The notes below the pieces were generated by a model. It saw only the letters and a program-made list of their open reading frames with translations, did no database searches and was not told where the DNA came from. A program made the translations under genes and the position numbers. 31,336 nt of DNA from a virus, in IMG/VR virus record IMGVR_UViG_3300018416_000064, positions 1-31,336 of that record; one strand, given 5' to 3'. Shown here one piece after another: positions 4,576-29,168 of the stretch (the first letter of the stretch is position 1; the number at the start of each line of letters is the position of its first letter).

Positions 4576-5664
4576 TTATTGGAATAGAGGATTTTGTTCA
4601 AGATCGAGACTGGTTGGCGGATTGTATGCCGCCACTTCCTTGACTCTTTCCACGATCTCTTGGACAGGCTTTTCTTTTGTGGTTTTATCTTCAACAACTT
4701 CCTGTTCAACATCCTTTGTTGGATTTGTAATGGATAAGTAAAGCTCTCGACCAAGCTTTGTAAGCATCCTCTTCCCGTCAATGTCAATCAGTCCCTTTCC
4801 AAGAAGTGCTGCTTCGTATTCATTCTGGATTACAGACCTAGAGAATCCTGTTGAAGCTGCAATCGCATTAAGTGACTGCTTCTGCCTCTCTCCAAGGAGT
4901 TTGATGATTTTCAATTCTGCATCGTTCAGACCATATTGATAAATACCCATGATTAAGCAGAATTCGTCCCACAAAGGCTTGTTGATGTAGGTGGCCCCTT
5001 TTGCCAATGCGAAGTGGTCAAGCTCTTCTGCAAGCTCTACACAAGCCCTCGGATGCCCTCGAAATACCTTGACAATATCTCCACTAATCTCATCACTGGT
5101 TCTTGTTTTACAGTTCAACTGGAAAATATCAAAAAGATTTTTAGTAGAATAAGGCTGGATTGAGATTTTTGTCAATCGGTCGAGCAGGGCTTTCTTCAAT
5201 TTCTGCTGGTCAGTTGTGGCGAAAACAATAGAAATTTTACGAAAATCAAATTCGTAATCAACCTCGCCACCTTCTCTGTGAGTGTAGGTGATTGTGCGAA
5301 CAGGATTCGGGTCTTTCTCTAGAATCGTAAGAAAAAGTTCTTGAAGTTCTGAGGGGATGTTGTGAGCTTCGTCGATAAAAAGAACTGCATTACTATTAAT
5401 CCAGTGTGGGTAGTAACTCTCTAGGAACGATTCTGCACTTTTAATAGCAGCACCGTTTACTTCCATAATCGGAGGGGTGTCTCCGTTGTTTTTTCTCAAG
5501 GTTTGGCGGAACTCGCGAATTGTTTTTGTTTTACCATCGCCCCTCGCTCCAGTGAAGATAATGAATGGCAATTTATTCTTCCTTTCATAAGAGTTTTTAT
5601 AAATAAAGAGTCTTGACTTAACTTCTTCTTGTCCAATAATGTTTGGTAGGTAGTTTTCTTTCAT
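4576..5664 (-). CDS. RuvB-like AAA+ ATPase
   Basis: The 362-residue protein has an AAA+ core with Walker A GARGDGKT (39-46), Walker B VLFIDEAH (94-101), sensor 1 FATTD (148-152) and an arginine-finger region LLDRLTK (around R163). A winged-helix-like C-terminal domain follows (about 245-320: LNDAELKIIKLLGERQ, then VIQNEYEAALLGKGLIDID), the domain order of RuvB, the Holliday-junction branch-migration motor (~335 aa). The extra ~40-residue disordered tail ends in QNPLFQ, resembling a sliding-clamp-binding QxxLF peptide. It may process recombination or replication forks with the phage RecA. No RuvA or RuvC is visible here. Confidence 0.8.
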   Translation of the reverse strand: MKENYLPNIIGQEEVKSRLFIYKNSYERKNKLPFIIFTGARGDGKTKTIREFRQTLRKNNGDTPPIMEVNGAAIKSAESFLESYYPHWINSNAVLFIDEAHNIPSELQELFLTILEKDPNPVRTITYTHREGGEVDYEFDFRKISIVFATTDQQKLKKALLDRLTKISIQPYSTKNLFDIFQLNCKTRTSDEISGDIVKVFRGHPRACVELAEELDHFALAKGATYINKPLWDEFCLIMGIYQYGLNDAELKIIKLLGERQKQSLNAIAASTGFSRSVIQNEYEAALLGKGLIDIDGKRMLTKLGRELYLSITNPTKDVEQEVVEDKTTKEKPVQEIVERVKEVAAYNPPTSLDLEQNPLFQ

Positions 5665-7606: not shown

Positions 7607-7630
7607 TTATTTATTTATTTATTTATTTAT
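7607..7630. repeat. Tetranucleotide repeat, six TTAT units
   Basis: Six perfect TTAT copies cross the stop codon of the PAS-protein gene (7619-7621). Slippage could change the last residues; TAA recurs in the array so read-through is always short. Confidence 0.7.
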
Positions 7631-8230
7631 TAATTTTTCTGGACAATCTTCTTTAGAAATAATTCCTAAATATTTTTCTACTTCTCCGCTGATGCCTTTA
7701 ATTGGATAAGCGTGAATGTCGCAATATATTCTAGAATCCGATGTTGTTTTAAGAACTATGGAAAATTCAGCTTCTCGACCTTCTGCAAAAGCCTTTGACC
7801 AGTCATTATCGTATTTTTCTTTAACCTCAGAAGAAGCTAAGAAGTTTTTCCATCCATATCCTATAAGCTCTTCTTTTGACGCTCCAATCCATTTACAATA
7901 AGTTCTATTTACGTATTTATTGTATCCTTCTCTTGTGCATTCAAAAATACCTACTACAGCGTCTTCTTTAAAACATCTTTGCGTATTTCTTAAAAGCTCC
8001 AATCCTCCCTCTATCTTTTCTGAATTTTCCTTTATCTTTTTTATATGATCTTTAATTGACCCTCCCCCATTTGGAATAACCTCTTTATATATAGTGTCTG
8101 TTTTTATGATTGTATCAGATACTGGCTTTAATATCCATTTATACGTTCCATATAAAAACCCTATAATTGCAGTAATTCCTCCAATTATTTTCGAAATATC
8201 TTCTATATTCTCTGTAAGATATTGCATCAT
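7619..8230 (-). CDS. Membrane-anchored PAS-domain protein
   Basis: The 203-residue product has one transmembrane helix (about 13-34, SKIIGGITAIIGFLYGTYKW), a charged helical linker (60-85) and a single PAS domain (88-195). PAS signatures are GIFECTREGYNKYVN at the start, KWIGASKEELIGYGWKNFL, the W..AF.EGREAEFSIVL strand and the C-terminal YPIKGISGEVEKYLGIISKE. No kinase, cyclase or other output domain is attached, so it may sense a small ligand or redox state and signal by protein contact. It follows the lysin gene after 4 bp and shares its late-type promoter. Confidence 0.75.
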   Translation of the reverse strand: MMQYLTENIEDISKIIGGITAIIGFLYGTYKWILKPVSDTIIKTDTIYKEVIPNGGGSIKDHIKKIKENSEKIEGGLELLRNTQRCFKEDAVVGIFECTREGYNKYVNRTYCKWIGASKEELIGYGWKNFLASSEVKEKYDNDWSKAFAEGREAEFSIVLKTTSDSRIYCDIHAYPIKGISGEVEKYLGIISKEDCPEKLINK

Positions 8231-8234
8231 AATA

Positions 8235-9128
8235 TTACTTTGCTTTTAAACGCCCCGCTCTTCTGTCTTTTTCGTTAATAAGAATGTAAGGGAACGATCT
8301 TCTTAGGCCATAGTCCTTATAATCTAAAAACATTTTGGGGTTGTCTAAATTCTCAAGTTCTTCATAAATATAATTTCTTATTAATTGAAATTCATTAGGT
8401 TTATTAGTTTGGCAACCTAAAGAAGAAGTGGTTGAATATCCCCCGCTATGCCAATTGATAGCGTGATAACCTGTGTGCTTGTATGAAGGGCTTCCGTCTC
8501 TTACCACTGTAAAAGGACAGGCTTGCCTAAACGCTGGAGAGCCTTTGTGCGGCCCTCTTCCAAAAAACCAAACTCCCGTGTCCAACATCGCCATTCCTTT
8601 TTTAGAGCCATAGCCGTATCCCTTTCTATAGCCGTTTGGGTCTGTGTTTCCTTTGAATCTTAAAACACCCCTTGGAGTTACAATAAAATGGGCATCATCA
8701 TATACTCTTCTATCGTTTTTGCCTCTTGCTCCTACGGAATCTAGTTGATAACCTCTAATTGCTACTACGACTAAATGCTTTTCAGGATCAAAGGGGGTTG
8801 GCTCTGGATTGTTTCTATTAGGCTCTGCTATGAGAAAATGAGAATTGGCGTCTACAATTTTTCTAATCTCTTCGTCTTCTAAGAAGTCGAGGCTTTCTTT
8901 TTGGGCTTTAATTTTTAATCCATCAATTTTTAATTTTGCGTAAGTATTATTTCCAACAATACCATCAGCCTTTAAACCCTTTTCTCTTTGATAAAGTTTA
9001 ACTGCGTTGTCAGTTCCTTTACCAAAATCTCCATCAACTCTCCCGTGGTAAAAGTTCAAATCCTTCAGCAACTGTTGCACGGCATGAATCTCTGCATAAT
9101 CTTTTAATCCCTTTTTCAAGACCCTCAT
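8235..9128 (-). CDS. Peptidoglycan-binding, L,D-transpeptidase-like lysin
   Basis: The 297-residue product has an N-terminal PG_binding_1 domain (about 10-70: AVQQLLKDLNFYHGRVDGDF, then TDNAVKLYQREKGLKADGIV) and a C-terminal catalytic-looking domain. The latter ends in H222-A-I-N-W-H227, followed by STTSSLGCQT with Cys239; His...S-x-GC is the signature of the YkuD/L,D-transpeptidase fold. No signal peptide is visible, so a holin-type pore would be needed if it acts as endolysin; a virion-associated wall enzyme is the alternative. The twin late-promoter motif lies 7 nt upstream. Confidence 0.65.
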   Translation of the reverse strand: MRVLKKGLKDYAEIHAVQQLLKDLNFYHGRVDGDFGKGTDNAVKLYQREKGLKADGIVGNNTYAKLKIDGLKIKAQKESLDFLEDEEIRKIVDANSHFLIAEPNRNNPEPTPFDPEKHLVVVAIRGYQLDSVGARGKNDRRVYDDAHFIVTPRGVLRFKGNTDPNGYRKGYGYGSKKGMAMLDTGVWFFGRGPHKGSPAFRQACPFTVVRDGSPSYKHTGYHAINWHSGGYSTTSSLGCQTNKPNEFQLIRNYIYEELENLDNPKMFLDYKDYGLRRSFPYILINEKDRRAGRLKAK

Positions 9129-9200: not shown

Positions 9201-9222
9201 CAAGAATTGCATAAAATTCTTG
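9201..9222. promoter_or_regulatory. Inverted repeat overlapping a -35 box, possible operator
   Basis: CAAGAATT (9201-9208) and AATTCTTG (9215-9222) form a perfect 8-bp inverted repeat separated by 6 bp. Its right arm overlaps TTGACA (9220-9225), as a repressor site would. Confidence 0.4.
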
Positions 9223-9247
9223 ACAACTCTGATTTTTTTGTTATAAT
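9220..9247 (+). promoter_or_regulatory. Consensus sigma70 promoter for the plus-strand island
   Basis: TTGACA (9220-9225), 16 bp, TATAAT (9242-9247), then 7 nt to the ATG at 9255. The mRNA is expected to start at or next to the start codon. Confidence 0.7.
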
Positions 9248-9254
9248 AATTTTA

Positions 9255-9800
9255 ATGAATCAAGGTAAATTAAAAAACACAAACGCACTCGTAATTGGTC
9301 CTATGGAGGAAGGACTGGAGGCGGGTAGAGAGCTTCGCTCAAGAATTAAGAAGCAATTAGCCGAATTAGGCATCAATGTTTGGGATCATTATTCTAGACC
9401 GTTCATTAATGAAATTGAAGAAAATGAGGAGACTCACAACGATCTAGTTAAAGCCAGAGAATGCGGTAATTATGAACTTATTAATTCTTATCGAGACATT
9501 AGGAGGCAGGATTTATCTCTTGTTGATACCGCCGACTTTATTATTTGCGTATTTGAAAAAAAGACGTTCTCAGTTGGAACATGGAATGAATTTTTTCTTG
9601 CCGACTCTTTGAGAAAGCCTATCTTCTTTGTTTGGGGAGAAGGGAAAGATAAATGCCCTCTTTGGCTTTTTTGGACTTTGCCCCACTCTTACATCTATTC
9701 TAGTGTAATAGAGGCTTTGGAGACAATTAAAGCCATTGACAGTGGGCAAATAGAAATTGACAGCAAACGCTGGAGACTTAAAAAACCAGAATTTAGATAA
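9255..9800 (+). CDS. Nucleoside 2-deoxyribosyltransferase-like protein
   Basis: The product has 181 residues from the ATG at 9255; an upstream in-frame ATG at 9207 lies before the promoter and is rejected. The Rossmann-like plan has a first strand ALVIGPM, a helix, then RRQDLSLVDTADFIICVF and SVGTWNEFFLADSLRKPIFF. The pattern D-x-x-x-[ILV]-x-x-[AC]-D, then S-x-GT-x-x-E-x-x-x-A with a following KP strand is that of the nucleoside deoxyribosyltransferase superfamily, which exchanges or hydrolyses nucleoside bases. The phage protein could act in nucleotide salvage or in modified-base metabolism. First gene of the three-gene plus-strand island. Confidence 0.65.
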   Translation: MNQGKLKNTNALVIGPMEEGLEAGRELRSRIKKQLAELGINVWDHYSRPFINEIEENEETHNDLVKARECGNYELINSYRDIRRQDLSLVDTADFIICVFEKKTFSVGTWNEFFLADSLRKPIFFVWGEGKDKCPLWLFWTLPHSYIYSSVIEALETIKAIDSGQIEIDSKRWRLKKPEFR

Positions 9801-9941
9801 ATGAGCGCAGGAAAAGGAGATAAGCCAAGAAAAGTGGACGGAGAGAAATATCGTAGCAACTACGATAAAATTTTCAGGAAAGACAATTTTTCGCCTTCTG
9901 AAACGTCGAAGGCTGCAAAAAAAACAACATCAAAAAAATAA
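9801..9941 (+). CDS. Small conserved phage protein (46 aa)
   Basis: A 46-codon frame begins with ATG immediately after the TAA of the preceding gene and ends at 9941. The N-terminus MSAGKGDKPRKVDGEKYRSN resembles a small protein I recall from many marine phages (MSAGKGDxPR then GxKYRxNYDxIF); no function is known for it. The C-terminus is lysine-rich (KAAKKTTSKK). Zero spacing indicates translational coupling with the upstream gene. Confidence 0.75.
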   Translation: MSAGKGDKPRKVDGEKYRSNYDKIFRKDNFSPSETSKAAKKTTSKK

Positions 9942-9963
9942 AACCAAATACAATTGCTAATAA

Positions 9964-11187
9964 ATGAAGCGTCGATCTTTTTTATCCACAATAGGAGGCC
10001 TAGCACTCCCGTCATTACTCTCTGCCCAATATGGAAGAGAAGCAAAAGCGAAGAACATTATTTATGTTTACTTGACTGGAGGTATTTCAGCGCAGGAAAC
10101 TTTTGACCCAAACCCATTTGCGGATTCAGAATTTAAAGGACCATTCAGTTCAATTAAAACAAAAACTGATGATCTTTTCTTTTCTGACAGATTTCCTTTA
10201 TTAGCCAAAGAGACTAATAAATTTTCAGTGATTAAGTCAATGACTCACGGGCAAGCAGCCCACGAAAGAGGAGTAGAGTATATGTATACTGGATACAAGC
10301 CTTCTCCTGCTATAAGTTATTCTTCTATTGGCTCTGTAATTTCGCACGAATATGGAGTTCAAAATTCACTACCTCCTTATGTAACGGTTCCTGATACTCC
10401 AAATCAATTTGCAAATGCTGGATTTCTGTCTTCACAGTATAATCCATTTTCTTTAGGTAGTGATCCATCTTCTCCCTCCTTCAAAGTTAAAGATTTGGGC
10501 CAAAACTTGCCAGCAAGAAAGGCTGACATTTTAGAGTTAGTTGATTCCAGATTTAAAAAGGAAGTTTCTGACGATGCCATCGTCGCAATGGATAAATTTT
10601 ACAACCAAGCCTTTGGTCTTATGGCGTCTCAAAAAGCAAAGGACGCTTTTGATATATCTAAAGAAAGCGAAAAAACAAAAGATTTATACGGAGACTCTTC
10701 TGCTGGCAAACGACTTTTAATTTCAAGAAGGCTTGTCGAATCTGGAGTCAGGATTGTAAAAACAAGTTTTGGCAGTTGGGATAATCACGATAATATCAAA
10801 ACAAGTTTTGAAAACCAAGCCCCACAATTAGACAAAGCTCTTGCCGGATTGTTTCAAGACCTAGAACAAAGAGGTTTATTAAATGAAACTTTAGTGGTTG
10901 TTACAAGTGAGTTTGGAAGAACTCCTAAAATAAACAAAACAGCAGGAAGAGATCATTACCCAAAAGTGTTTTCTACTATAGTCGGAGGAGGCGGGATTAA
11001 TAATGGTATTGTTTACGGTTCTTCTGGAAATTTAAGCATGGAGGTTGAAGAAAACCCTGTTTTGCCTGAAGATTTATTTGCTACAATTTTTCACCTTTCT
11101 GGAATTTCTCCAGAAAAGGAGCTTTTCACAAAAGATTTAAGGCCGATTCAGATAAGCAAAGGAAAGATTATCGAAGAGTTAATTTAA
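9964..11187 (+). CDS. Tat-exported DUF1501 (sulfatase-superfamily-like) protein
   Basis: The 407-residue product starts MKRRSFLSTIGGLALPSLLS, a twin-arginine signal (RRSFL, then a hydrophobic stretch), so it should be exported folded. The rest matches DUF1501: an N-terminal strand IIYVYLTGGISAQETFDPNP, SVIKSMTHGQAAHERG, then SFGSWDNHDN, LDKALAGLFQDLEQRGLLNE, VVTSEFGRTPKINKTAGRDH and FSTIVGGGGINNGIVYG. The Asp/His/Glu residues of these motifs probably bind metal in an alkaline-phosphatase-like fold. Members are mostly 420-480 aa and abundant in Planctomycetes/Verrucomicrobia. Occurrence in phage DNA is unusual and suggests acquisition from a host. Substrate unknown. Confidence 0.85.
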   Translation: MKRRSFLSTIGGLALPSLLSAQYGREAKAKNIIYVYLTGGISAQETFDPNPFADSEFKGPFSSIKTKTDDLFFSDRFPLLAKETNKFSVIKSMTHGQAAHERGVEYMYTGYKPSPAISYSSIGSVISHEYGVQNSLPPYVTVPDTPNQFANAGFLSSQYNPFSLGSDPSSPSFKVKDLGQNLPARKADILELVDSRFKKEVSDDAIVAMDKFYNQAFGLMASQKAKDAFDISKESEKTKDLYGDSSAGKRLLISRRLVESGVRIVKTSFGSWDNHDNIKTSFENQAPQLDKALAGLFQDLEQRGLLNETLVVVTSEFGRTPKINKTAGRDHYPKVFSTIVGGGGINNGIVYGSSGNLSMEVEENPVLPEDLFATIFHLSGISPEKELFTKDLRPIQISKGKIIEELI

Positions 11188-12305
11188 ACTCTTAATTTTA
11201 AGACAGAGTGCTTTTCTAGGGCATACGTTAAATCGAAGGCTCCGTCAATTATTGCGCCAATAATATCTTCGTCAGTCAATGGAATTGACTGATTTGCATT
11301 GATAGAAATCCAAATGTAATAAAGTGGAGGTTTGGCTGAAAGTTCGATTGGATCGTAAACGGGATTTGCGTATTCTCCATCTGGACCTGTAAATGGCTCT
11401 GAACCTACTAAGATTTGATATCTTTCAACATACGGATATAAATATCTGTTTCCTTCTTTCGGTTGAATTAACGGATAAATTGGTATATAAAATTTTCCAT
11501 CGGTCTGCTGGTTTCCTTCTCTTCCTGTTTTCGGAGCTTCTTCCTCAATAGAATCAAAATCTCTTTTTTCCCCCTGTATTTCTAAATACGCATCCGTCAA
11601 AGTCGCGGACCTTATTACATCGTAAGGAACATATGCGCCGTCATTCTCTTGATCAAGAGTCGCAACTTCTGTGCTGTATTCTGCAACTAAGTATACCCTC
11701 TTTTCTGGCTCTTCCTTTTCTAAGAGTGATTCCTCTCCTTGGACTTCAAATTCTATTGGGTCTACAAATAAAACTTTTCCAGAAGAAAGGCATACAGCAA
11801 AACCTCCTTCCATTTTGTATTTCTTAGAAATTATTTCCCCTGTTCTCTCGTCAAACTCTGTGCTTATTTGATTTACTTGGAACGCTTTTTTTGTAGCAAA
11901 ATACCTATCTTGTATGAAGACATTCTGTTTTAAAATTTGATTTATATTCCCTGAGTTATTAATGGCGCAGATTAGGATATAGTCTTTTTCTCTTACATAA
12001 CTTGTTGGTAAAGACTCTGACAGCGCAACTTTAATAATTTTAGAAGTTTTTATATCGTATCTGTCTATTGATAGATAGAATTTGTCTCCTTTCTCGTAAG
12101 AGAAGTCCTCTCGCATATTTGATGGTCTACAAAAATTGCATGACTCTTTTAAGGAAACATCTAACTCATTTCCGTCTTTATTTTTAGAATCTTCAAATAT
12201 ATTAAAAATAAAACCATCGGAAAATCTTAACTTATTATCTGACGTTTTATAAGCTTGAAATGGTGAAAATGATAAAGATACGTTTTTGCCTTTTTGTAAA
12301 ATCAT
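11184..12305 (-). CDS. Probable virion structural protein (373 aa)
   Basis: A soluble, beta-rich protein without signal or membrane segment. N-terminus MILQKGKNVSLSFSPFQAYK; an acidic low-complexity region near 190-260 (EESLLEKEEPEKRVY, FDSIEEEAPKTGREG); a C-terminal part rich in Tyr/Pro strands (YIPIYPLIQPKEGNRYLYPY). It is the last gene of the 13891-11184 operon lying downstream of the fibre and glycan genes, so a tail, baseplate or fibre-connector role is likely but not shown. It ends convergently with the DUF1501 gene, the stop codons sharing TTAA. Confidence 0.6.
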   Translation of the reverse strand: MILQKGKNVSLSFSPFQAYKTSDNKLRFSDGFIFNIFEDSKNKDGNELDVSLKESCNFCRPSNMREDFSYEKGDKFYLSIDRYDIKTSKIIKVALSESLPTSYVREKDYILICAINNSGNINQILKQNVFIQDRYFATKKAFQVNQISTEFDERTGEIISKKYKMEGGFAVCLSSGKVLFVDPIEFEVQGEESLLEKEEPEKRVYLVAEYSTEVATLDQENDGAYVPYDVIRSATLTDAYLEIQGEKRDFDSIEEEAPKTGREGNQQTDGKFYIPIYPLIQPKEGNRYLYPYVERYQILVGSEPFTGPDGEYANPVYDPIELSAKPPLYYIWISINANQSIPLTDEDIIGAIIDGAFDLTYALEKHSVLKLRV

Positions 12306-12309
12306 TTTA

Positions 12310-13185
12310 TTAGGAAGGAAGGGGGTAATAAGCCTCTAAATCAAAAAGAATTACAGAGCCAAGGTCTTTAAAATCCGGCACTAAAAAAAAGTCTAGATTT
12401 TCTAACTCTGTAGAATACTCAAACTCTGGAGCATACATAGAACTTCTATTAAGACGGAAATCTACATTTCCTTGTTGGCAGTTTACTATTTCGCCATCAT
12501 CATTTTTAAAAGCCAGCGGGATTCTTGTAGAGCAGCCTACTACTAAATCCACTTCTTCGCCGCCTTCTAAGGCGAATGTCTGTTCCTGACCCGCAACAAG
12601 TTCGCCTTGGGTTTTTGTTCCTCCTATTATTTCCGCCGTTTGTGGCTGTATCTCTTCAGAGTTGGGCAGTGACCGATCTATATTTCCAGCAGAAAAATCA
12701 AGAAACAAGCAATCTTGTATGTCTGTATCGCTTCTATCTATTAGTTTTTTTATATAATTGTAAGTTTTCAGCAAGAAGGGCGTTGTCTTTAGTTTTCCAT
12801 CATTTTTGTAGGAAACGCATCTTCCTATAATTTGACTAGGGATTAAATTAAAAACACCATAATAATATATATCTCTTTTGCCTTTTTTTACTATAGGCAG
12901 GAAGACGTTAAATAATCTATCATTATTTGACTTAACTTCAAGAACTTGTGATTCGTCAAGAATCTCCGCAGATAATATAAGATTCGAATTTTCTATAAAT
13001 TTCAAATGCAAATAATAGTCTTTATCTGAGGGGTTTTCAATTGTAGAATTGAAGCCTAAATTTTGATTTGACAAGATTCCACCAGTAAAATTTACAATAT
13101 GTCCTGAAATTGCTCCTACCCTTATAGAAAACGGTGTTTGATTTCCAAGAACTACATTTTTCGATTTTTTTTTAAAATAACTCAT
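12310..13185 (-). CDS. Probable structural protein, paralogue-like (291 aa)
   Basis: The ATG at 13183-13185 (MSYFKKKSKNVVLGNQTPFS) is chosen over one seven codons upstream because it matches the N-terminus of the gene before it. The N-terminal region has ISGHIVNFTGGILSNQNLGF, similar in layout to VTISNGGILDPISG in 13172-13891. The rest is beta-rich with polar loops. It overlaps the upstream gene by 14 bp and lies 4 bp from the next. No named family recognised. Confidence 0.6.
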   Translation of the reverse strand: MSYFKKKSKNVVLGNQTPFSIRVGAISGHIVNFTGGILSNQNLGFNSTIENPSDKDYYLHLKFIENSNLILSAEILDESQVLEVKSNNDRLFNVFLPIVKKGKRDIYYYGVFNLIPSQIIGRCVSYKNDGKLKTTPFLLKTYNYIKKLIDRSDTDIQDCLFLDFSAGNIDRSLPNSEEIQPQTAEIIGGTKTQGELVAGQEQTFALEGGEEVDLVVGCSTRIPLAFKNDDGEIVNCQQGNVDFRLNRSSMYAPEFEYSTELENLDFFLVPDFKDLGSVILFDLEAYYPLPS

Positions 13186-13891
13186 TATCTGGTTCTCCAA
13201 AATCAAAATTAACTGTTTCTCCTCCTTTTATCAACCTTGTTACGGTTTTTCCCAATATGTCGATATACGCTACAGGAAGGAAGGAATCTAAAGAATCTTC
13301 TGGACTTCTAAAGTCTCCTGTTGGCGTTTCACCATTTGAAACTGCTCCAAACCCGAATATAGCGGAGCTTCTAAATTCCTTTGGAAATTTAATGATCGAA
13401 CTTTTTTTGCCCTCCTCAGTTGTGGAGTGGTAATTACCATCTCCGTCAATGATGGTCCCAGATGTATACCTAATGTATTGCTGAGACTCAAAAGGATCAC
13501 CCTGTCCCATGTCGGGTTCTATATAAGCACCAAAGTAATCGTAAAATCCCGCACTTTCATTTGTATAAATTATGTCGTTATTTATTAGCGAATTGTTTAT
13601 TTTAACAAATTCGCACAAGCTGTCTGTCTGTTGCTGTTCTGCCGCTTGTTCTTTGGTTAATATTTTCAATCCTGAGCATCTTAAATTTGGAAGCTCCTTT
13701 TCGATGCAGATAAAGGTATCACCTTTTGCATCTGCCAAATCTAAATCGTTAAAATTAATAGAATGATAATCTCCAGAAATTGGATCAAGAATTCCGCCGT
13801 TTGATATCGTAACCTCATCTCCATATTCTAAGATTCTAAATGAATTATTGAATTCTACCAAATTTAATTTATTTCTTTTTAAGTAGCTCAT
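13172..13891 (-). CDS. Probable structural protein, paralogue-like (239 aa)
   Basis: The likely start is the ATG at 13889-13891 (MSYLKRNKLNLVEFNNSFRI); two codons upstream is a TTG. The N-terminus resembles the next gene (MSY-K-basic, then a GGIL turn). The middle has cysteine-containing loops and PDMGQGDPFESQQYIRYTSG, and the C-terminus PVAYIDILGKTVTRLIKGGE. It is beta-rich without membrane segments. First gene of a three-gene operon, preceded by a weak late-promoter-like motif (13903-13910). Confidence 0.6.
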   Translation of the reverse strand: MSYLKRNKLNLVEFNNSFRILEYGDEVTISNGGILDPISGDYHSINFNDLDLADAKGDTFICIEKELPNLRCSGLKILTKEQAAEQQQTDSLCEFVKINNSLINNDIIYTNESAGFYDYFGAYIEPDMGQGDPFESQQYIRYTSGTIIDGDGNYHSTTEEGKKSSIIKFPKEFRSSAIFGFGAVSNGETPTGDFRSPEDSLDSFLPVAYIDILGKTVTRLIKGGETVNFDFGEPDNELF

Positions 13892-14044: not shown

Positions 14045-14725
14045 TCATACGGCCCCCTCTCTTCTAAATAATTCATTTCCAGTTCTATTTGTGGTTTTAA
14101 TCTCATTATCTCTTTCTTTCTCAAATTCAAACATATTAAAAATCTCATCAGGATTAGCAGACCCGCCTAAAAATTTAATTAAACGAATCATCTCTTGATT
14201 ATCTTGTAACCTTAATTTTTCATAGTTTAATGTGATTATTTGTTCTGAATTTAATTCTTTATTAAATAAACTATAATCGTATCTCCATTTATCGACAATA
14301 TCCTTAATTAAATCATTTTCTAATTCCACATCTTCGACGCCGAAGTATTTCAACCTTTCCAATAGGTCGGATTCTTTAACGTGTGATTTAGCGTAATGAA
14401 ACCTACTTTTTATCGCATTCTCTTCCTTTCTTAATATGTTTAAGATTAATAAATTCTCATCCATATTAGTTAATTCTTCAAATAAATCTGGAGTGATAGA
14501 GTGACTTTTAATGTAAAAGTTCCCACCCATCTTTCTAACAAATTCTGATATTAGCCCTAACTTTTCTCTACAATTTACTTTAGTTAAATCTAAGAACTTA
14601 TCTATAAAAGCATAATCTTGTGTGTTATCCAGAATTTTATTCGACATTCTCCCAACCCAACTAGACCCAACCCTCATGGCTGTTGAAATTAGTAAATGCT
14701 TCTTTTCGGGTAAAATGCAATTCAT
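14045..14725 (-). CDS. Sulfotransferase-like protein
   Basis: The product has 226 residues from the ATG at 14723-14725 (a TTG lies directly upstream). LLISTAMRVGSSWVGRM corresponds to the 5'-phosphosulfate loop of PAPS-dependent sulfotransferases. NILRKEENAIKSRFHYA fits the 3'-phosphate site (R...S), ITLNYEKL is the usual strand near the acceptor site, and FLGG follows. The protein ends at RREGAV, where family members usually continue as R-x-G-x-x-G-x-W-K, so the C-terminus is clipped. It could sulfate surface glycans, together with the glycosyltransferase just upstream. It has its own near-leaderless promoter. Confidence 0.7.
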   Translation of the reverse strand: MNCILPEKKHLLISTAMRVGSSWVGRMSNKILDNTQDYAFIDKFLDLTKVNCREKLGLISEFVRKMGGNFYIKSHSITPDLFEELTNMDENLLILNILRKEENAIKSRFHYAKSHVKESDLLERLKYFGVEDVELENDLIKDIVDKWRYDYSLFNKELNSEQIITLNYEKLRLQDNQEMIRLIKFLGGSANPDEIFNMFEFEKERDNEIKTTNRTGNELFRREGAV

Positions 14726-14731
14726 CAACTG

Positions 14732-16093: not shown

Positions 16094-17806
16094 TTATAGG
16101 TCACTTACTTCTATTAAATCAACGGACGCAGCCCATCTAATTGTGCTACCTCCTGCTCCTGTAACTTTTATAACTAAGGAGTCGGTTGTAGTGTCTGCTT
16201 CTGCTGTTACGTCCCAACCTGCCACATCTTCCGCTATTGTTGTAACTGTTATTGACCCAACAATAGCCGCGCTGTTTGTCCCTTCTCTTTCTATTAAACC
16301 TTTTATTTGATAAGCGGCTGATTGTTCGCCGCCGCCGTCTGTTCTTCTAGCTACAATATTTATATTAAATTTTGAAGTGGTTCTTGCATTAATTGTTATA
16401 TTTTTACTAGAACCATCTAGATATAAATTAGTCTGAGTTGCGTTTGTTGTTACTCCTCTTGCTAATAACGAGCTTCTTCTAGGATTTCCAGTTAAAGCTG
16501 AACCTGCAAAAGCACCAGCACTCTGAGATAATTCCCCATATCTATGTGCTGTTCCTTTATAACCTATAATTGTCGTGTCTTGCTCCGATGAAGTCTTTGT
16601 ATGGTCTCTACCTAATGCAACACTGTTTTCACCGTCAGAAATAGAGTTGCTTCTGCCCATCACAAAATTCGTATTGCTTAATAGCGTATTTGATTCTCCC
16701 ACAATAAAACAACCTGAAATTGCGCTTGAATTATCTCCAATTGCATTGGAAGAACCTATGATAGAGGAGTCTTTCGCTTTTGTAATAATTGATGATCGAG
16801 CAGAACCTATAAAACAATAAGGGGAATCGTCTATAATAGCCGAAGCTGCTCCCCCCACAATTGCACTCTCTGTAGCGTTTCCAGTTATATAACTTGATGT
16901 TCCTCCTATAATCGCTGAATTAGTAGCACCTACTCCTATATTACTGTTTTTCCCTCCAAGAATAGCACTTTGCGTTCCCGCTGTTATATAATCAGATAAT
17001 CCTGTAAGATTGTCTTTTGCTATCTGTAAGTCTACTGACTTTGAGCCTCTTGCTCTTTCGGAAAGGGCCGCGACATAGCCAGTTGGTGATATAAAAAACG
17101 CACCAGTTCCTTTTGGGCTAATATTTACACTTGCATTGGAGTGTGCATTTTCAAAACTTGGCGATAATCCGACAGTCTTTGTTCCATTAGTTATTGACTC
17201 GTCAAAGTAAGTTAATCCTGTAGTGCCACCGCCCACACCAACTAATCCAGTAGAACCAGAGACCAGTTGAAATTCTAATCCTATTGGGTTAGCTGGATTA
17301 TATACTACCGCCCATCCACTTTGCGCCCCATCTGTGGTTAAAACCGTTCCTTGGCCGAGGCCTGTTCCTACATATAACTGCCCAATCCCCTCATCTAAAA
17401 AATTACTAAAGGGTTGAGAACCAAAATCGTTTAATCCGCTTCCGTTCACGGTTAAACCACCCGTTATATCAACAGAACCAGTGAAAAAAGAATCCCCGCT
17501 AACGTCTATTCCATTTATAAATTGGGTAATATCCGTAGTTCCTGTTACAACTAAGTTCGCTAAGTTATTGTCATTATAGCCTGTTAAATCTCCGTCTATC
17601 TGTAAGTTCTCCTGAATCTGAGACGACCCTGTTACATTCAGAAATCCATTTACTCCTAGACCATCGCAGCTTAAATGTTCTGCAAATCCCCCTCCTTTTA
17701 AAATGAATGAACCTGTATGGCCGTTTTCGTCCCTTAGAAATTCATAGGCTCCAGAAACAGCCTCTGATATCTCCACTGAATTATTGAATAAATTAAAAGT
17801 AGCCAT
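16094..17806 (-). CDS. Tail fibre with YadA-head-like repeats
   Basis: The 570-residue protein is Gly/Ser/Asn-rich. N-terminal third: short beta segments with ITGGLTVNG and VVTGTTDI patterns, typical of fibre shafts. Middle (about 275-420): repeated units such as SAILGGKNSNIG, SAIIGGTSSYITG, SAIVGGAASAI, SSIIGSSNAIG, NSVALGRDHT, i.e. the S-x-A-[IL]-x-G turn of trimeric YadA/Hep_Hag heads. C-terminal ~90 residues (RRTDGGGEQSAAYQIKGLIE, then GSTIRWAASVDLIEV) look like a terminal domain shared by marine phage fibres. A trimeric receptor-binding fibre is likely. No chaperone protein is recognised next to it. Confidence 0.8.
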   Translation of the reverse strand: MATFNLFNNSVEISEAVSGAYEFLRDENGHTGSFILKGGGFAEHLSCDGLGVNGFLNVTGSSQIQENLQIDGDLTGYNDNNLANLVVTGTTDITQFINGIDVSGDSFFTGSVDITGGLTVNGSGLNDFGSQPFSNFLDEGIGQLYVGTGLGQGTVLTTDGAQSGWAVVYNPANPIGLEFQLVSGSTGLVGVGGGTTGLTYFDESITNGTKTVGLSPSFENAHSNASVNISPKGTGAFFISPTGYVAALSERARGSKSVDLQIAKDNLTGLSDYITAGTQSAILGGKNSNIGVGATNSAIIGGTSSYITGNATESAIVGGAASAIIDDSPYCFIGSARSSIITKAKDSSIIGSSNAIGDNSSAISGCFIVGESNTLLSNTNFVMGRSNSISDGENSVALGRDHTKTSSEQDTTIIGYKGTAHRYGELSQSAGAFAGSALTGNPRRSSLLARGVTTNATQTNLYLDGSSKNITINARTTSKFNINIVARRTDGGGEQSAAYQIKGLIEREGTNSAAIVGSITVTTIAEDVAGWDVTAEADTTTDSLVIKVTGAGGSTIRWAASVDLIEVSDL

Positions 17807-18613: not shown

Positions 18614-20538
18614 ACCTTTTCTATGAAAAACTCGTTATTTATTGCTTTTTTCAAATCTGCGTCTATGTCACTCGATTTTAATACATTAGCTGCTTGAAAA
18701 CCCAAGCTTTCTTTTTTAAACTTAGAGCTAAAAAACAAGAATAAAGAATTTCCAAATCGAACATCTTGTCCGGTTGGTAACTCCACCTTGCCCTCTTCTA
18801 AAATTTGGATTAGAGAAGATTGTGCTTCTTTTTTGATGCAGTCTATGTCTTTAATTAAAAACGTCGCACCTTCTAAAATCGAGGCTTTTTGAGCTAACGA
18901 ACACAAATAATCTTCAGAGAAGCCTGATATTGAATTTTTGTCTACTAGGGATTTTGCCGACACTGAAACGTAAGGCATCCCATTAGATTTAAAGTAACTC
19001 TCTAAGACAGAGATGACTGCTTTTACATCACTTTCTGATCCAAAAGAAAAAATACTATTGGGGATATCGCCATCTTGTTTAGTAAAAACATCTTCAGATA
19101 TGTTTTTGAAGAAATCGAGCAATTTATTGCAATTGATTCCCTTTTTTAACAACTCTTTGGACAAGCCAGTTTTAAAATCCTTTTTTAACAAAAGACCTCC
19201 TTTATCAACAAAGGCTTCTTTTAAAGTCTTCCTAGTCACCGAATTTAAATCCTCCAACTTGGCAATAGCACCGCATTGATCGACTATATCTACAAATTTA
19301 TCTGGATAATTCCTGTTTGGTAAAAAAACATCACAAAATTTAATAGCTTCTTTTGAAAATTCGGGAAAATATTCAACGCCGCTCTTTTTGCTAAAGCTTT
19401 CAACGATATGATCAGCAATGTCCAAAACTTGAGAAGAGGACAATGGCAATACAGATACCTTCTCAAACCTCCTGTCTAAAGCTGGATTCTTTTTAAAACT
19501 TTGATTGTATTCATAATCTGTAGTTGCCCCTATGCAAGATATTTCTCCCCTTGCTAGGTAGGGTTTTAAAATATTAGACGCTTCCAAATCTCCCTTTCTT
19601 CCTGTCCCTCCTGCTCCAATTAAAGAATGAATTTCATCAAAAAACAAAATAATGTTATCGTATTTCATTACTTCGTTAATGAACTCTTTAATTCTTTCTT
19701 CAAAATTGCCCCTAAACTCTGTTCCTGCAACCATATCTGAAATGGATACTTCGAATACGACCTTTCCTTTCAAACAGTTTGGAACTCTATCGTTTACAAT
19801 TTCTCTAGCAAGCAACTCTACAATTGCAGTTTTTCCTCCTCCTGCTGGTCCAACGAGAATTGGATTCGGTTTTCTTTCTCTAGACAAGACTGTTTGCGTC
19901 TTTTTTAATCTATTTTCAAAATCTACAAGACCGTCGAAATCTCCAGCCATAGCTTTTTTATTTAGATTTACGGCGAACAAGTCTATTGTTTCATTAACTG
20001 CGTCTTGTTGAAATATTCTTTCTTCATCTTCGCTCTTTTCCTCCTCCTCTTCTTCCTCTTCCTTCTCCTCCTGTTCATCCAGCAGGGAGGCAAGAGGCTC
20101 TCCAAGGTCTTTAATAAAAAGAACTATTTTTTCTATAAAATCATTTACTGAAAAATCTCCTGAATCAAGTAGCGATTTTAACAATTTACCGTGTTTTGGG
20201 TAAGACACTAAAGCTAGTAATAAAATCTCCGCAGATATATCTTCTTGCTCCAAAGTTTCCGCCAGAGACTCTGCAACTTGCAAAACTTCTCTACATTGTT
20301 TATTTAATCGAGTTGTCGGATTTTTTGATGGAGGCTTTTCAGTTAAAAAACAGTAAGCTAAAACTTTTGATAAATTAACATCAATATTTAAAGAACCAAA
20401 AATCTTATGGATTGAAATTGAATTATGGGAAGTCACCGCCTCCCAAAGAATATCTACACAAATATAAGGCCTTTCAAGCTCCTCTGCGGTATCTTCGGCT
20501 CTTTTTAAAATTTGCAATACGTCTTTTGATTTATTCAT
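18610..20538 (-). CDS. Clp/Hsp100-like AAA+ ATPase with inactive second ring
   Basis: The 642-residue protein has a Clp N-domain-like region (1-150), an acidic linker (155-173, mostly Glu), then a complete D1 AAA+ module: Walker A GPAGGGKT (230-237), Walker B ILFFDEIH (297-304), sensor GATT (337-340) and finger ALDRRFEK (353-360). The D2 module (about 470-640) is recognisable (SSLIQILEEGKVELPTG, NSLFLFFSSKF) but its Walker A is replaced by SFGSESD (498-504) and its Walker B is FLIKDID, lacking the catalytic Glu. Normal ClpA/C have two active rings. Its start overlaps the polymerase stop (TAATG), so it is co-translated with the polymerase core and may remodel replication complexes. I see no ClpP gene here. 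Confidence 0.8.
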   Translation of the reverse strand: MNKSKDVLQILKRAEDTAEELERPYICVDILWEAVTSHNSISIHKIFGSLNIDVNLSKVLAYCFLTEKPPSKNPTTRLNKQCREVLQVAESLAETLEQEDISAEILLLALVSYPKHGKLLKSLLDSGDFSVNDFIEKIVLFIKDLGEPLASLLDEQEEKEEEEEEEEKSEDEERIFQQDAVNETIDLFAVNLNKKAMAGDFDGLVDFENRLKKTQTVLSRERKPNPILVGPAGGGKTAIVELLAREIVNDRVPNCLKGKVVFEVSISDMVAGTEFRGNFEERIKEFINEVMKYDNIILFFDEIHSLIGAGGTGRKGDLEASNILKPYLARGEISCIGATTDYEYNQSFKKNPALDRRFEKVSVLPLSSSQVLDIADHIVESFSKKSGVEYFPEFSKEAIKFCDVFLPNRNYPDKFVDIVDQCGAIAKLEDLNSVTRKTLKEAFVDKGGLLLKKDFKTGLSKELLKKGINCNKLLDFFKNISEDVFTKQDGDIPNSIFSFGSESDVKAVISVLESYFKSNGMPYVSVSAKSLVDKNSISGFSEDYLCSLAQKASILEGATFLIKDIDCIKKEAQSSLIQILEEGKVELPTGQDVRFGNSLFLFFSSKFKKESLGFQAANVLKSSDIDADLKKAINNEFFIEKV

Positions 20539-23078
20539 TATTTTAATTCTTTGGTCTTTAAATACACCTTACTGTCAAGAACGCTCATTGTCGAGACGAA
20601 ATTTGTTCCGTCTGAAATTTCCGCTCTTATAACTGCTATGTCTCCTTTATTTGGTTCTCCGTTTTCTAAAAATCTAGAAAAAGCGTCTCCCCTCCAGTCT
20701 CCAAAAAGTATTTTTGCCGTTCCACTGTCATCGGACACTGTAGCCGCCATGTATTTTCTATCGTTTCTGTCTAAGCGAATTGTGAAGTCGTCTATTCTAG
20801 CGACTGCTCTCCAGCTTCTTGGCTGTTCAATAGATATATCCTTTAGGGTTTTTAAATCCCTCTTTTCTTTGAAGCAGTCAACTAAAGAAATAGAAGGGCT
20901 GTAACCTAATAAATTAGTCTCAAACCACCAAGTCGATAAGTTTCCTCTTTTTTGGTTTTCTTGATAAAGAGTTTTGTAATCTTGAAATTTTCTTTTAAAA
21001 GTTTCAAATCGAGACTCTTTCATTACCAACTTGTTATCGTCTCCAATGATTTTTTCAAATACGCTTTTGGATATGGAATTTAACAAGTCAAAATTATGCC
21101 TTTCCCCAAGTTTGTAAAATTGTCTTTTCTCTCTGTCTGTTAGTAAATTGTATGCTTGAGCTTCTAAAGCTTTTTTCGGCCTTTCCTTTAATCCCAAAGC
21201 TCCTGCGTAAATCATAGAGCTTAAAACTCCTATATTTATTTTACACTGTTTTGCACAAGCGAATACGTCGTATTTGTTTTTAGGGTCTAGTTTAACAAAC
21301 TCCTCCAAACATTTCTTTGTTCTTTCTGAAACTCCCTTGATCGACTGAAGGCCGTAACGAATATCGTCGCCTTCTATTGTGAAATTCATTGCAGATGACT
21401 CCAAGCTTGGAGGGAGAAGTCTAACTCCAAAGTCAGAAATTTCTCTACTTACCTCCGCAATAGCCTCCAAGGGGTCTGGCTCGTCTTCTGCGACCTCTAG
21501 AATTGATGTAAAGAATTCTTTTGGATGCTTATATTTTAGCCAAACCGTTTTGGCGGCTAAAGACGCATAGCAAACTGCGTGACTTGCATTAAAAGAATAG
21601 TTGGCACTGGCTTCTAGCGCGTTCCAATAATATTGCGCCAAATCTTCATTCAAGCCGTTTTCGTTAGCCGCTTGAAAGATTTTCGACCTCCATGCTGGCA
21701 TTTCATTTGTTTTTTTCTTTCCAACGATTCTTCTCAAAGTCTCCGCATCGTCAAGAGAAAGTTTAAAAACTTTATTAGCAATTTGCATCAATTGTTCTTG
21801 ATACAAGATTACGTTTTTTGATCTTGCCAAGATTTTATCTAATTCTGGATGAAGACCTAAAGGACTTTCATTTTGTTTTTGAGAAATATAGTCATCTACA
21901 AACTGCAATGCAGCGGGTCTAGCTAGAGCAACAACGTCAGCAAGTTCTGCTAAATTGCTAGGTTTTACTTTTTTCGTTACGTCTGCGTTGATGTCTGCCG
22001 AAATTTGAAAAAGACCGCAAGGATGATTAAAGTCTTGCAGCATTTCATAAATAAAAGGGTCTTCATCGTCTACATCATCCAAGGATATTCCGATCTTTTT
22101 GCACACCTTATTCGCAATTGACAGAGTTCTTAACCCTAGAATGTCAAACTTCACCATTAAATCGGCAACGTCATTCATTTCATAACTAGAGATTAGTTCT
22201 CCGTCCTTAGTCAATTGAAGAGGACAGACATCAGAAATCTCTTGGGAGCAAATCGCAATACCAGAAGGGTGAACTCCGCAATTTTTATTCAAATTTTCTA
22301 ATAACAAAGCGCATTCGTAAGCTTTTTTGTTACTATTGCACCAATCTTCGAATCTAGGAACTTCATCATAAGCCCTTTTTAAAGAAACAACTTTCCCATG
22401 TTCTTTGGGAATCATGTCGCTAACTTTATTTGCTTCTTCTTCGGATGCGTTAGAAAAGAATTTCGCGCATTCTTTTATACAAAGCTTTGAAGAGAAAGTA
22501 TTAAAAGTTAAAATTTTGGCCGTTTTTCCTTTGTGCTTTTCTTCAATATAGTCTATTACTTTAAATCTATCTTCGTGAGATATATCTGTATCTACATCTG
22601 GAGCCAGCGATCCTACTAAAAATTCTTTACCTTTTTTGTCAAAGGTCTTTTTCGCTCTATTTTTTGAAACAAATCTCTCAAAAAATAGATCGTGTGGGAG
22701 AGGGTCTTTATTCGTTACTCCAAGCAAATAAAGGATTAAACTACCCGCTGCGCTTCCTCTGCCATCCCCCACGGCGATCCCACTCTTCTTCGCAAAATCA
22801 ACTACATCCCAATTCAAAAGAATGTAATCAACAAAACCTAATTCATCAAAAATATCAATTTCATATTTGGCCCTATCGTAGTATTCCTTCTTGTTGGAAA
22901 GTTTGTCTATCCCTCTGTCTTTAATACCCTTTCTTGATAAGGCCTTTAAAACTTCTAAACTATCAGCCTTTTTTTCCAACCCAAGCTTTTTGAGAGTCTT
23001 TTTTTCTAATTCAATCTTGGGCAACTCCAAACCTGCTGGTTCAAAATCCTCATAGGTTTCAAAACTGTCAAAATTCAT
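20538..23078 (-). CDS. DNA polymerase III alpha, polymerase core without PHP domain
   Basis: The 846-residue protein aligns with bacterial DnaE from just before the palm: YEIDIFDELGFVDYILLNWD, GDGRGSAAGS (104-113), PDVDTDIS with catalytic Asp161 and Asp163, and VKFDILGLRTLS with Asp312. LYQEQ (425-429) and KKKTNEMPAWRS follow, then LLPPSLESSAMNF, and an OB fold (about 755-840: AVARIDD, ATVSDDSGTAKILFGDW). The N-terminal ~270-residue PHP domain is absent but encoded separately at 28476-29168. The tau-binding C-terminus of bacterial DnaE is also missing. It is the likely phage replicase. It has its own near-leaderless promoter and overlaps the Clp-like gene by one base. Confidence 0.9.
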   Translation of the reverse strand: MNFDSFETYEDFEPAGLELPKIELEKKTLKKLGLEKKADSLEVLKALSRKGIKDRGIDKLSNKKEYYDRAKYEIDIFDELGFVDYILLNWDVVDFAKKSGIAVGDGRGSAAGSLILYLLGVTNKDPLPHDLFFERFVSKNRAKKTFDKKGKEFLVGSLAPDVDTDISHEDRFKVIDYIEEKHKGKTAKILTFNTFSSKLCIKECAKFFSNASEEEANKVSDMIPKEHGKVVSLKRAYDEVPRFEDWCNSNKKAYECALLLENLNKNCGVHPSGIAICSQEISDVCPLQLTKDGELISSYEMNDVADLMVKFDILGLRTLSIANKVCKKIGISLDDVDDEDPFIYEMLQDFNHPCGLFQISADINADVTKKVKPSNLAELADVVALARPAALQFVDDYISQKQNESPLGLHPELDKILARSKNVILYQEQLMQIANKVFKLSLDDAETLRRIVGKKKTNEMPAWRSKIFQAANENGLNEDLAQYYWNALEASANYSFNASHAVCYASLAAKTVWLKYKHPKEFFTSILEVAEDEPDPLEAIAEVSREISDFGVRLLPPSLESSAMNFTIEGDDIRYGLQSIKGVSERTKKCLEEFVKLDPKNKYDVFACAKQCKINIGVLSSMIYAGALGLKERPKKALEAQAYNLLTDREKRQFYKLGERHNFDLLNSISKSVFEKIIGDDNKLVMKESRFETFKRKFQDYKTLYQENQKRGNLSTWWFETNLLGYSPSISLVDCFKEKRDLKTLKDISIEQPRSWRAVARIDDFTIRLDRNDRKYMAATVSDDSGTAKILFGDWRGDAFSRFLENGEPNKGDIAVIRAEISDGTNFVSTMSVLDSKVYLKTKELK

Positions 23079-28251: not shown

Positions 28252-28489
28252 CTAATTGAAAATCTGCAAAAAATTCTTCTCCTCTTTTTTCTTCCTTTAG
28301 AAAGTTTTTGATACCACCTTTGACGGCCATCCTTGTTGCCTGATTTTCGAAATTCTCTGCACAAGTTGGATTTCCTGATGAGTCCACGTAGAAAATAAAA
28401 AATCCTTTATTCCCTCCTGCGTGATAGCCTGTCCTATCATAGAGCTTCGAAAACAAGCTCTCTGGTATATTTAGTTTACTTTTTTCCAT
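28244..28489 (-). CDS. Small hypothetical protein (81 aa)
   Basis: Starts at the ATG at 28487-28489 behind a GGGAGG that could be a ribosome-binding site; the longer frame from 28612 lies inside the PHP gene. It is soluble (MEKSKLNIPESLFSKLYDRT, then FFIFYVDSSGNPTCAENFEN). It overlaps the PHP gene by 14 bp and the helicase gene by 8 bp, so expression is coupled to both. A helicase-loader role is conceivable from position only. Confidence 0.6.
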   Translation of the reverse strand: MEKSKLNIPESLFSKLYDRTGYHAGGNKGFFIFYVDSSGNPTCAENFENQATRMAVKGGIKNFLKEEKRGEEFFADFQLDD

Positions 28490-29168
28490 AATCCTCCCAA
28501 CAAAATCTCTTCGTATTACAATCTTCAATTTCGGGTGCGTCAAATTTTCTTGGCCTCCCTCCAGTGCCTCTTCCGCACATGGACTTATAAGCTTGGAATG
28601 CCGGAAAGTCAAGTTCTTTTTCGTAAAGAATTGTTTTGGCAGTTTGAAATTTTACGCTGTCTAAATTTAACTTCTTCAATTTGTCTATTTCTCTTTGAAT
28701 TTGATAATCAAACGGATGACCGTTTTCTTCCTCAAAAACAACGCATTCCTTTAGCTTTTCTATTGGAAGGTTTGAGTTGCCGAAATTATGAATTCTTTTA
28801 TGCAAAAAACTGTCGTAAAAAGGTATCGCGACCAAAACATCACAAGATTGAATGCTTTCAAAATTAAGAATTCCATCGTTTTTAACGTATGCTTCAGAAA
28901 ATAACTTTCTAAGTTCTTTAAGTCCACTATCGTTCTTAGCAAAAAGAACGATCTTGCTTGAAGCGTTGTCTTCGTGACTGCAATCTATTCTCAACCCGAA
29001 AATCAACTTTTTACCCTGTTCTTTTGCCTTTTTTACGGTTTTGCGGAAACCTGCAAAAGAGTCTTCTACCACAACTACTTGCTCCTCGTCTTTTGCTAGT
29101 TCAAAAATTCTATCAATAGATAGGATCGACTTTCCTATTGAAAAATGAGTCTTAAATAAGGGTATCAT
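28476..29168 (-). CDS. Stand-alone PHP domain of DNA polymerase III alpha
   Basis: The 230-residue protein aligns with the N-terminus of bacterial DnaE: PLFKTHFSIGKSILSIDRIF corresponds to VHLRVHSDYS, VVVVEDSFAGF to the ALAITDFTN segment, KKAKEQGKKLIFGLR to the GAGIKPIVGA strand, and KIVLFAKNDSGLKELRKLFS to the VLAANNTGYQNLTLLIS helix. The C-terminus (FPAFQAYKSM, NTKRFCWED) corresponds to the DAHEIRVAI and YMRSEEEM segments just before the palm. Metal-binding His/Asp residues of active PHP domains are not preserved (VEDS, THFS), so it is probably structural rather than a proofreader. It should associate with 20538-23078. It has its own near-leaderless promoter. Confidence 0.85.
   Translation of the reverse strand: MIPLFKTHFSIGKSILSIDRIFELAKDEEQVVVVEDSFAGFRKTVKKAKEQGKKLIFGLRIDCSHEDNASSKIVLFAKNDSGLKELRKLFSEAYVKNDGILNFESIQSCDVLVAIPFYDSFLHKRIHNFGNSNLPIEKLKECVVFEEENGHPFDYQIQREIDKLKKLNLDSVKFQTAKTILYEKELDFPAFQAYKSMCGRGTGGRPRKFDAPEIEDCNTKRFCWEDYGKK

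Follow-up and report, generated by a model that had tools for sequence, protein, structure and literature searches.

A described counterpart of the locus reported here is the 'DUF1501 module' of PVC bacteria (Kamneva et al. 2012, cited in PMC4452313 and PMC4960237), which, as presented in the citing papers, involves the same protein family. DUF1501 is called uncharacterised in PMC4452313, and our search of the literature found no biochemical characterisation of DUF1501 or of its PSCyt/PSD1 partners; few protein families of PVC bacteria are as expanded, or as little understood, as these. The preliminary description of our locus had regarded DUF1501 as a cellular family of these bacteria, and this was borne out by eleven PVC genomes, with 6 to 76 copies per genome. 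In Opitutia genomes, the DUF1501 subfamily to which the window copy belongs lay in an operon of DUF1501, a PPC-domain protein and a PSCyt1/PSCyt2/PSD1 protein, in that order.

Host-derived exported enzymes in phages are of a known kind; the recurrent occurrence of DUF1501 in PVC phages is an under-described pattern. No paper on a phage DUF1501 was found among the open-access papers searched. A candidate for an earlier phage case, the 'DUF1501' of PMC5418858, was rejected as a weak domain match in a 61-aa phage protein.

The window (the whole stretch of DNA analysed) is an IMG/VR virus record of 31336 bp, in which a tRNA search found none. It contains a plus-strand unit of three genes (9255-11187), flanked on both sides by leftward genes:

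8235-9128, minus strand: endolysin-like left neighbour (PG_binding_1 and PHROG endolysins)
9220-9247, plus strand: sigma-70 promoter, TTGACA-16-TATAAT, 12/12 to consensus
9255-9800, plus strand: nucleoside 2-deoxyribosyltransferase-like protein, 181 aa, which keeps the G-T-x-x-E motif
9801-9941, plus strand: basic cytosolic protein of 46 aa (MSAGKGDKPRKVDGEKYRSNYDKIF...), with a 50-aa homolog in L003 (52%)
9964-11187, plus strand: DUF1501 (PF07394) protein, 407 aa, full-length profile match
11184-12305, minus strand: convergent right neighbour, whose stop overlaps the DUF1501 stop

The open reading frames, the 12/12 promoter and the PF07394 match (E=5e-101; 339 bits against a cut-off of 27; positions 1-390 of 390) upheld the earlier picture of a rightward three-gene unit that has a consensus promoter and ends in a Tat-signal DUF1501 protein. 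The unit had also been placed between lysin and structural genes. The endolysin was found as described, but the structural genes to the right were weakly supported: a PHROG search gave no match for structural genes at 11184-13206, and the sole PHROG structural match to the right of the unit was at 16094-17806 (E=0.005).

Beside the endolysin gene lies a gene (7619-8230, minus strand) whose product has a PAS domain and a hydrophobic segment at its N-terminus, a possible phage-encoded sensor. Farther along the window are a DNA polymerase III alpha-like catalytic ORF (20538-23078, minus strand) and a short ORF that by eye resembles the PHP N-terminal part (28476-29168, minus strand). The polymerase III alpha of the window thus seemed, by eye, to be split over two distant ORFs.

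The -10 element of the promoter stops only 7 nt ahead of the ATG at 9255. This suggested that the mRNA of the unit is probably leaderless. One other perfect sigma-70 site was present in the window, and only these two were found:

5701-5674, minus strand: second perfect sigma-70 site, ahead of the leftward gene 4576-5664 (RuvB-like by Pfam)

Its layout was like that of the first, with the transcription start at or near the ATG. By our own estimate, about 0.02 perfect sites per window would arise by chance, given the base composition and the spacing. The two perfect promoters with like layout suggest that both genes are leaderless and may be read early by the host RNA polymerase. A similar promoter was looked for around DUF1501 in two other phages, L001 and G004, and none was clear. 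Among these three, a promoter of its own for the DUF1501 unit was seen in the window only.

The product of the first gene scored 24.5 bits against PF05014 (Nuc_deoxyrib_tr), under the cut-off of 28.8, and appears to be only a weak relative of nucleoside 2-deoxyribosyltransferases. As the sole query in a scan of viral contigs, the gene found no relative. In INPHARED, its sole match was a 595-kb metagenomic phage (26%), and the 46-aa protein had no match. A homolog (33%) that passes PF15891 adjoins DUF1501 in L003, and a deoxyribosyltransferase-like gene lies near DUF1501 again in L003, L161, L163, L164, L177 and L179.

Three features of the DUF1501 protein bear on its export and activity:

9964-10029, plus strand: twin-arginine signal peptide, aa 1-22 (MKRRSFLSTIGGLALPSLLSAQ), by sequence
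10771-10794, plus strand: G-S-W-D-N-H-D-N motif, with W272, D273 and H275 invariant; predicted metal ligands
10906-10956, plus strand: S-E-F-G-R-T-P...G-R-D-H motif, with E316 in 41/42 and F317, R319, T320, N324, R329, D330 and H331 invariant; predicted metal site

The sequence MKRRSFLSTIGGLALPSLL combines a twin-arginine n-region with a hydrophobic h-region, the motif of a Tat signal. Almost every relative in the alignment, from phage or cell, had the RR of the signal. Its retention in the window copy is consistent with the proposal that the phage protein is exported by the Tat route.

An AF2 model was built from a 42-sequence alignment (pLDDT 88), in which the signal peptide was disordered. 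The best PDB matches of the model in Foldseek were sulfatases and lipoteichoic acid synthases (LtaS), with prob 1.00 and E ~1e-6, at TM-scores of only ~0.4. A search of the PDB with the DUF1501 sequence gave marginal sulfatase matches only. As the top Foldseek matches were all sulfatases or LtaS, the modelled fold belongs to the alkaline-phosphatase superfamily, which the preliminary description had put forward for structure comparison.

In the alignment, H100, T109, W272, D273, H275, F317, R319, T320, N324, R329, D330 and H331 were invariant in 42/42, and position 45 was acidic (Glu or Asp) in 42/42. The family-invariant W-D-x-H, S-E-F-G-R-T and G-R-D-H residues were all present in the window protein. 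The invariant Asp, His and Glu residues of the model lay at loops on the C-terminal ends of strands, a placement as expected for the predicted metal site of the superfamily. No invariant candidate for a nucleophile (Ser/Thr/Cys) was identified in the alignment. From the motif, the fold and the conservation we infer an exported hydrolase; the label 'hydrolase' is based on the fold and the conserved residues, because no activity is known for any DUF1501 protein.

It had further been suggested, from a sulfotransferase gene in the window, that the phage handles sulfated glycans in both directions. The gene (14045-14728) was a real Sulfotransfer_1 match. Such genes occurred in just 9 of the 42 virus records with DUF1501, in 5 of them with a score over the cut-off, and the coupling was dropped. 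The window DUF1501 protein lacks the formylglycine motif C/S-x-P-x-R and has zero cysteines, which also speaks against the suggestion. In G004, an unrelated phage, a Sulfotransfer_4 gene (L132:3407-4012) lies ~6 kb from DUF1501; the linkage was otherwise inconsistent.

DUF1501 is common on cellular PVC contigs, and its presence in the window might in principle reflect misassembly or host contamination. The DUF1501 stop and the convergent stop share 4 bp (TTAA, 11184-11187), GC is even along the window, phage genes lie on either side, and homologs lie amid phage genes on independent contigs. We therefore saw no sign of a chimeric assembly in the sequence. With the fully supported phage-only clade described below, such an artefact is exceedingly improbable.

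A two-pattern scan of IMG/VR gave 130 relatives, of which 80 were kept. A second query gave 36 matches (35 loci) of another DUF1501 type, three of them on contigs from the first scan. The phage contigs of IMG/VR that encode DUF1501 number at least 112. Among the 41 records searched whole, all contained it, 33 had 2-4 distinct copies, and seven had four. The majority of the contigs also carried DnaB, primase, RecA, PhoH, RNR, PolIII or exonuclease genes, and Terminase_6N was recognisable in 14/41 records. This indicated phages rather than mislabelled cells, although the identity of a few poorly annotated contigs (e.g. L028) is less certain. In BFVD there was one protein with an automatic DUF1501 name, which came from an uncultured Caudovirales phage. 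The INPHARED cultured-phage records had no tblastn match to any of the three different phage DUF1501 types used as queries.

The view of DUF1501 as a lone phage oddity is therefore too narrow as to distribution. Occurrence in many phages of unrelated hosts had been named as evidence against the original interpretation. Many phages do carry the gene, but the close cellular relatives found, in a search aimed mostly at PVC, were all PVC. With more than 100 uncultured phages carrying DUF1501, often in several copies, the host family appears to matter during infection.

In the tree, the window protein formed a phage-only clade with those of L002 and L080 (100/100 support), outside the sampled cell sequences yet within a PVC subfamily. 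It was 68-69% identical to the copies of L001/L002 and of G004. In L001/L002 the gene lies between the terminase (PF03237/PHROG) and the next (portal-like) gene; in the 112-kb G004 it lies 8 kb downstream of the terminase. No other gene common to G004 and the window was detected in a comparison of G004 less 2 kb. This suggested that the clade moved between unlike phages.

These positions, and the endolysin next to the window unit, would suit a virion or lysis component, i.e. a depolymerase-like enzyme on the particle or released at lysis. Such a role is improbable, since the gene position varies among phages, the unit has its own promoter, and a Tat signal takes the protein out of the cytoplasm ahead of assembly.

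A single clade for all phage copies of the window's subfamily was rejected (p-AU 0.0008). Other phage subfamilies had separate planctomycete counterparts (66%, 55-57% and 37-39%), which suggested that phages captured several host paralogs on several occasions. The phylogeny, with phage copies within the PVC family and a single viral origin rejected, thus agreed with the cellular origin presumed at the outset. A dN of 0.24 against saturated dS indicated purifying selection. Judging from the relatives of this gene, the host of the window phage was probably a PVC bacterium.

Many related loci (L006-L081; e.g. L033:8754-14430, L024, L062, L073) contained arrays in which two to four DUF1501 paralogs from different subfamilies stood together, usually in the exonuclease-PolIII gap or the RNR-PhoH gap. 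Many large marine phages have this array as a conserved island. Its surroundings include RNR, dCMP deaminase, PhoH and PAP2 phosphatase genes; the PAP2-family phosphatase (cluster c18, 19 viral loci; L021:12819-13490) has no obvious membrane helices. Also often found by arrays were a small exported protein with a Tat signal, CxxC-rich and EF-hand-like (cluster c41; L038:11196-11579, L041:9228-9713), and a Cys-rich lipoprotein-like peptide (cluster c36; L061:11963-12130). These small cysteine-rich proteins are possibly metal carriers. Some arrays adjoin a gene that by eye is for a HesB/IscA-like Fe-S carrier (cluster c57; L041:7831-8154, L052:3535-3852). In G040 (the record of L081), an 823-aa frame at ~11397-13739 holds pieces of two DUF1501 copies, possibly a fused pair or a frame error.

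The array neighbours raise the main rival to envelope change, namely nutrient scavenging, by which exported DUF1501 would free phosphate or sulfate from organic esters for phage DNA synthesis, like phoA/phoD/phoX. The RNR, dCMP deaminase, PhoH and PAP2 genes, the nucleoside-metabolism-like gene that opens the window unit, and the proven activity of the phage-encoded alkaline phosphatase PhoD (PMC10987575) all favour it. Simple ester release would not explain why one phage has several DUF1501 subfamilies, or why there is a PSCyt2-PSD1 partner; moreover, DUF1501 has no demonstrated phosphatase activity, and proximity to PhoH is weak evidence in phages. We consider scavenging unlikely, though worth keeping in mind. 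The position of the arrays beside RNR, PhoH and exonuclease genes is as compatible with nutrient supply as with surface change.

About 22 of the L161-L195 contigs had a PSCyt2-PSD1 (DUF1549/DUF1553) gene immediately upstream of DUF1501, and L008, L009 and L027 had such a gene next to DUF1501 as well. In PVC bacteria, PSCyt2-PSD1 is the usual partner of DUF1501. In the L008 type the two genes overlap by ~11 bp (L008:4900-8344). Many of the L161-L195 phages with this gene have homologs (38-52%) of the PolIII, RecA or exonuclease of the window. The window has no PSCyt2-PSD1 gene, only the DUF1501 part. By sequence, the phage PSCyt2-PSD1 proteins have a Sec-like signal and a CxxCH haem motif; those of L167-L191, L008, L009 and L027 are putative exported c-type cytochromes.

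This pairing in some phages, together with the adjacency of cellular DUF1501 to PPC-domain and PSCyt1/PSCyt2/PSD1 proteins, would also fit a non-catalytic interference, in which the phage protein replaces or competes with host DUF1501 in an exported DUF1501/PSCyt2-PSD1 machinery and so alters it. Phage copies keep all family-invariant polar residues, unlike a typical dead decoy, and we regard interference as quite unlikely.

The reading that we prefer, with about even confidence, is that of a host-derived 'moron-like' cassette, the exported and predicted metal-hydrolase of which modifies, during infection, some host component outside the cytoplasm. The window unit has the marks of auxiliary genes: its own promoter, an orientation and position unlike its neighbours, and a host origin. 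Host RNA polymerase would transcribe the unit early, and the Tat system of the PVC host would export DUF1501 pre-folded with its metal(s). The enzyme would then hydrolyse a phospho- or sulfo-ester of a lipid or polymer associated with the envelope. The phage would most likely benefit through an altered cell surface, either because fewer or changed receptors guard against superinfection or because the envelope is made ready for egress. We favour a surface change because related phages keep several host-derived DUF1501 types and pair some with PSCyt2-PSD1, like their hosts; the multi-subfamily arrays and this pairing are what suggest the purpose. As the hosts are already rich in DUF1501 copies, it is less obvious what the phage would gain from one more.

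A broader and more tentative proposal is that capture and assembly by PVC phages have repeatedly given rise to a minimal, exported envelope-modifying system based on DUF1501, previously undescribed, of which the window would be the simplest form. Such a system would consist of DUF1501, to which PSCyt2-PSD1 and small exported proteins rich in cysteine may be added. If the proposal is true, it would be a previously undescribed phage route to remodelling the PVC cell envelope during infection. Repeated independent capture and purifying selection imply that the family is worth carrying through infection. The lone phage DUF1501 and the DUF1501-PSD1 pair offer minimal units for expression and assay, and phage DUF1501 marks many uncultured marine phages as likely to infect PVC bacteria.

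Compared with known systems, the window DUF1501 resembles the type I (formylglycine) sulfatases (PF00884) in the superfamily fold and matches their HMM weakly and below the cut-off over its C-terminal half (E=0.001), but the sulfatases have the C/S-x-P-x-R activation motif, whereas the window protein has neither motif nor cysteine. The phage phosphatases phoA/phoD (PMC10987575) are likewise phage-borne and host-derived, and are hydrolases of phosphate esters. They belong to other families, the activity of phage PhoD is proven whereas that of DUF1501 is not, and no multi-subfamily arrays have been reported for them. The PVC 'DUF1501 module', for which no function is known, is represented in the window by its DUF1501 part only; the DUF1501 and PSCyt2-PSD1 pair of that module is found also in some related phages. 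The cellular DUF1501 proteins of Verrucomicrobiota/Planctomycetota (L083-L130, 46-54%) have the fold, the Tat signal and the invariant polar residues in common with the window protein, the N-terminus of which is shorter than in that cellular subfamily. Cell operons add PPC-domain and PSCyt1-PSCyt2-PSD1 proteins, whereas the window copy stands with a deoxyribosyltransferase-like gene.
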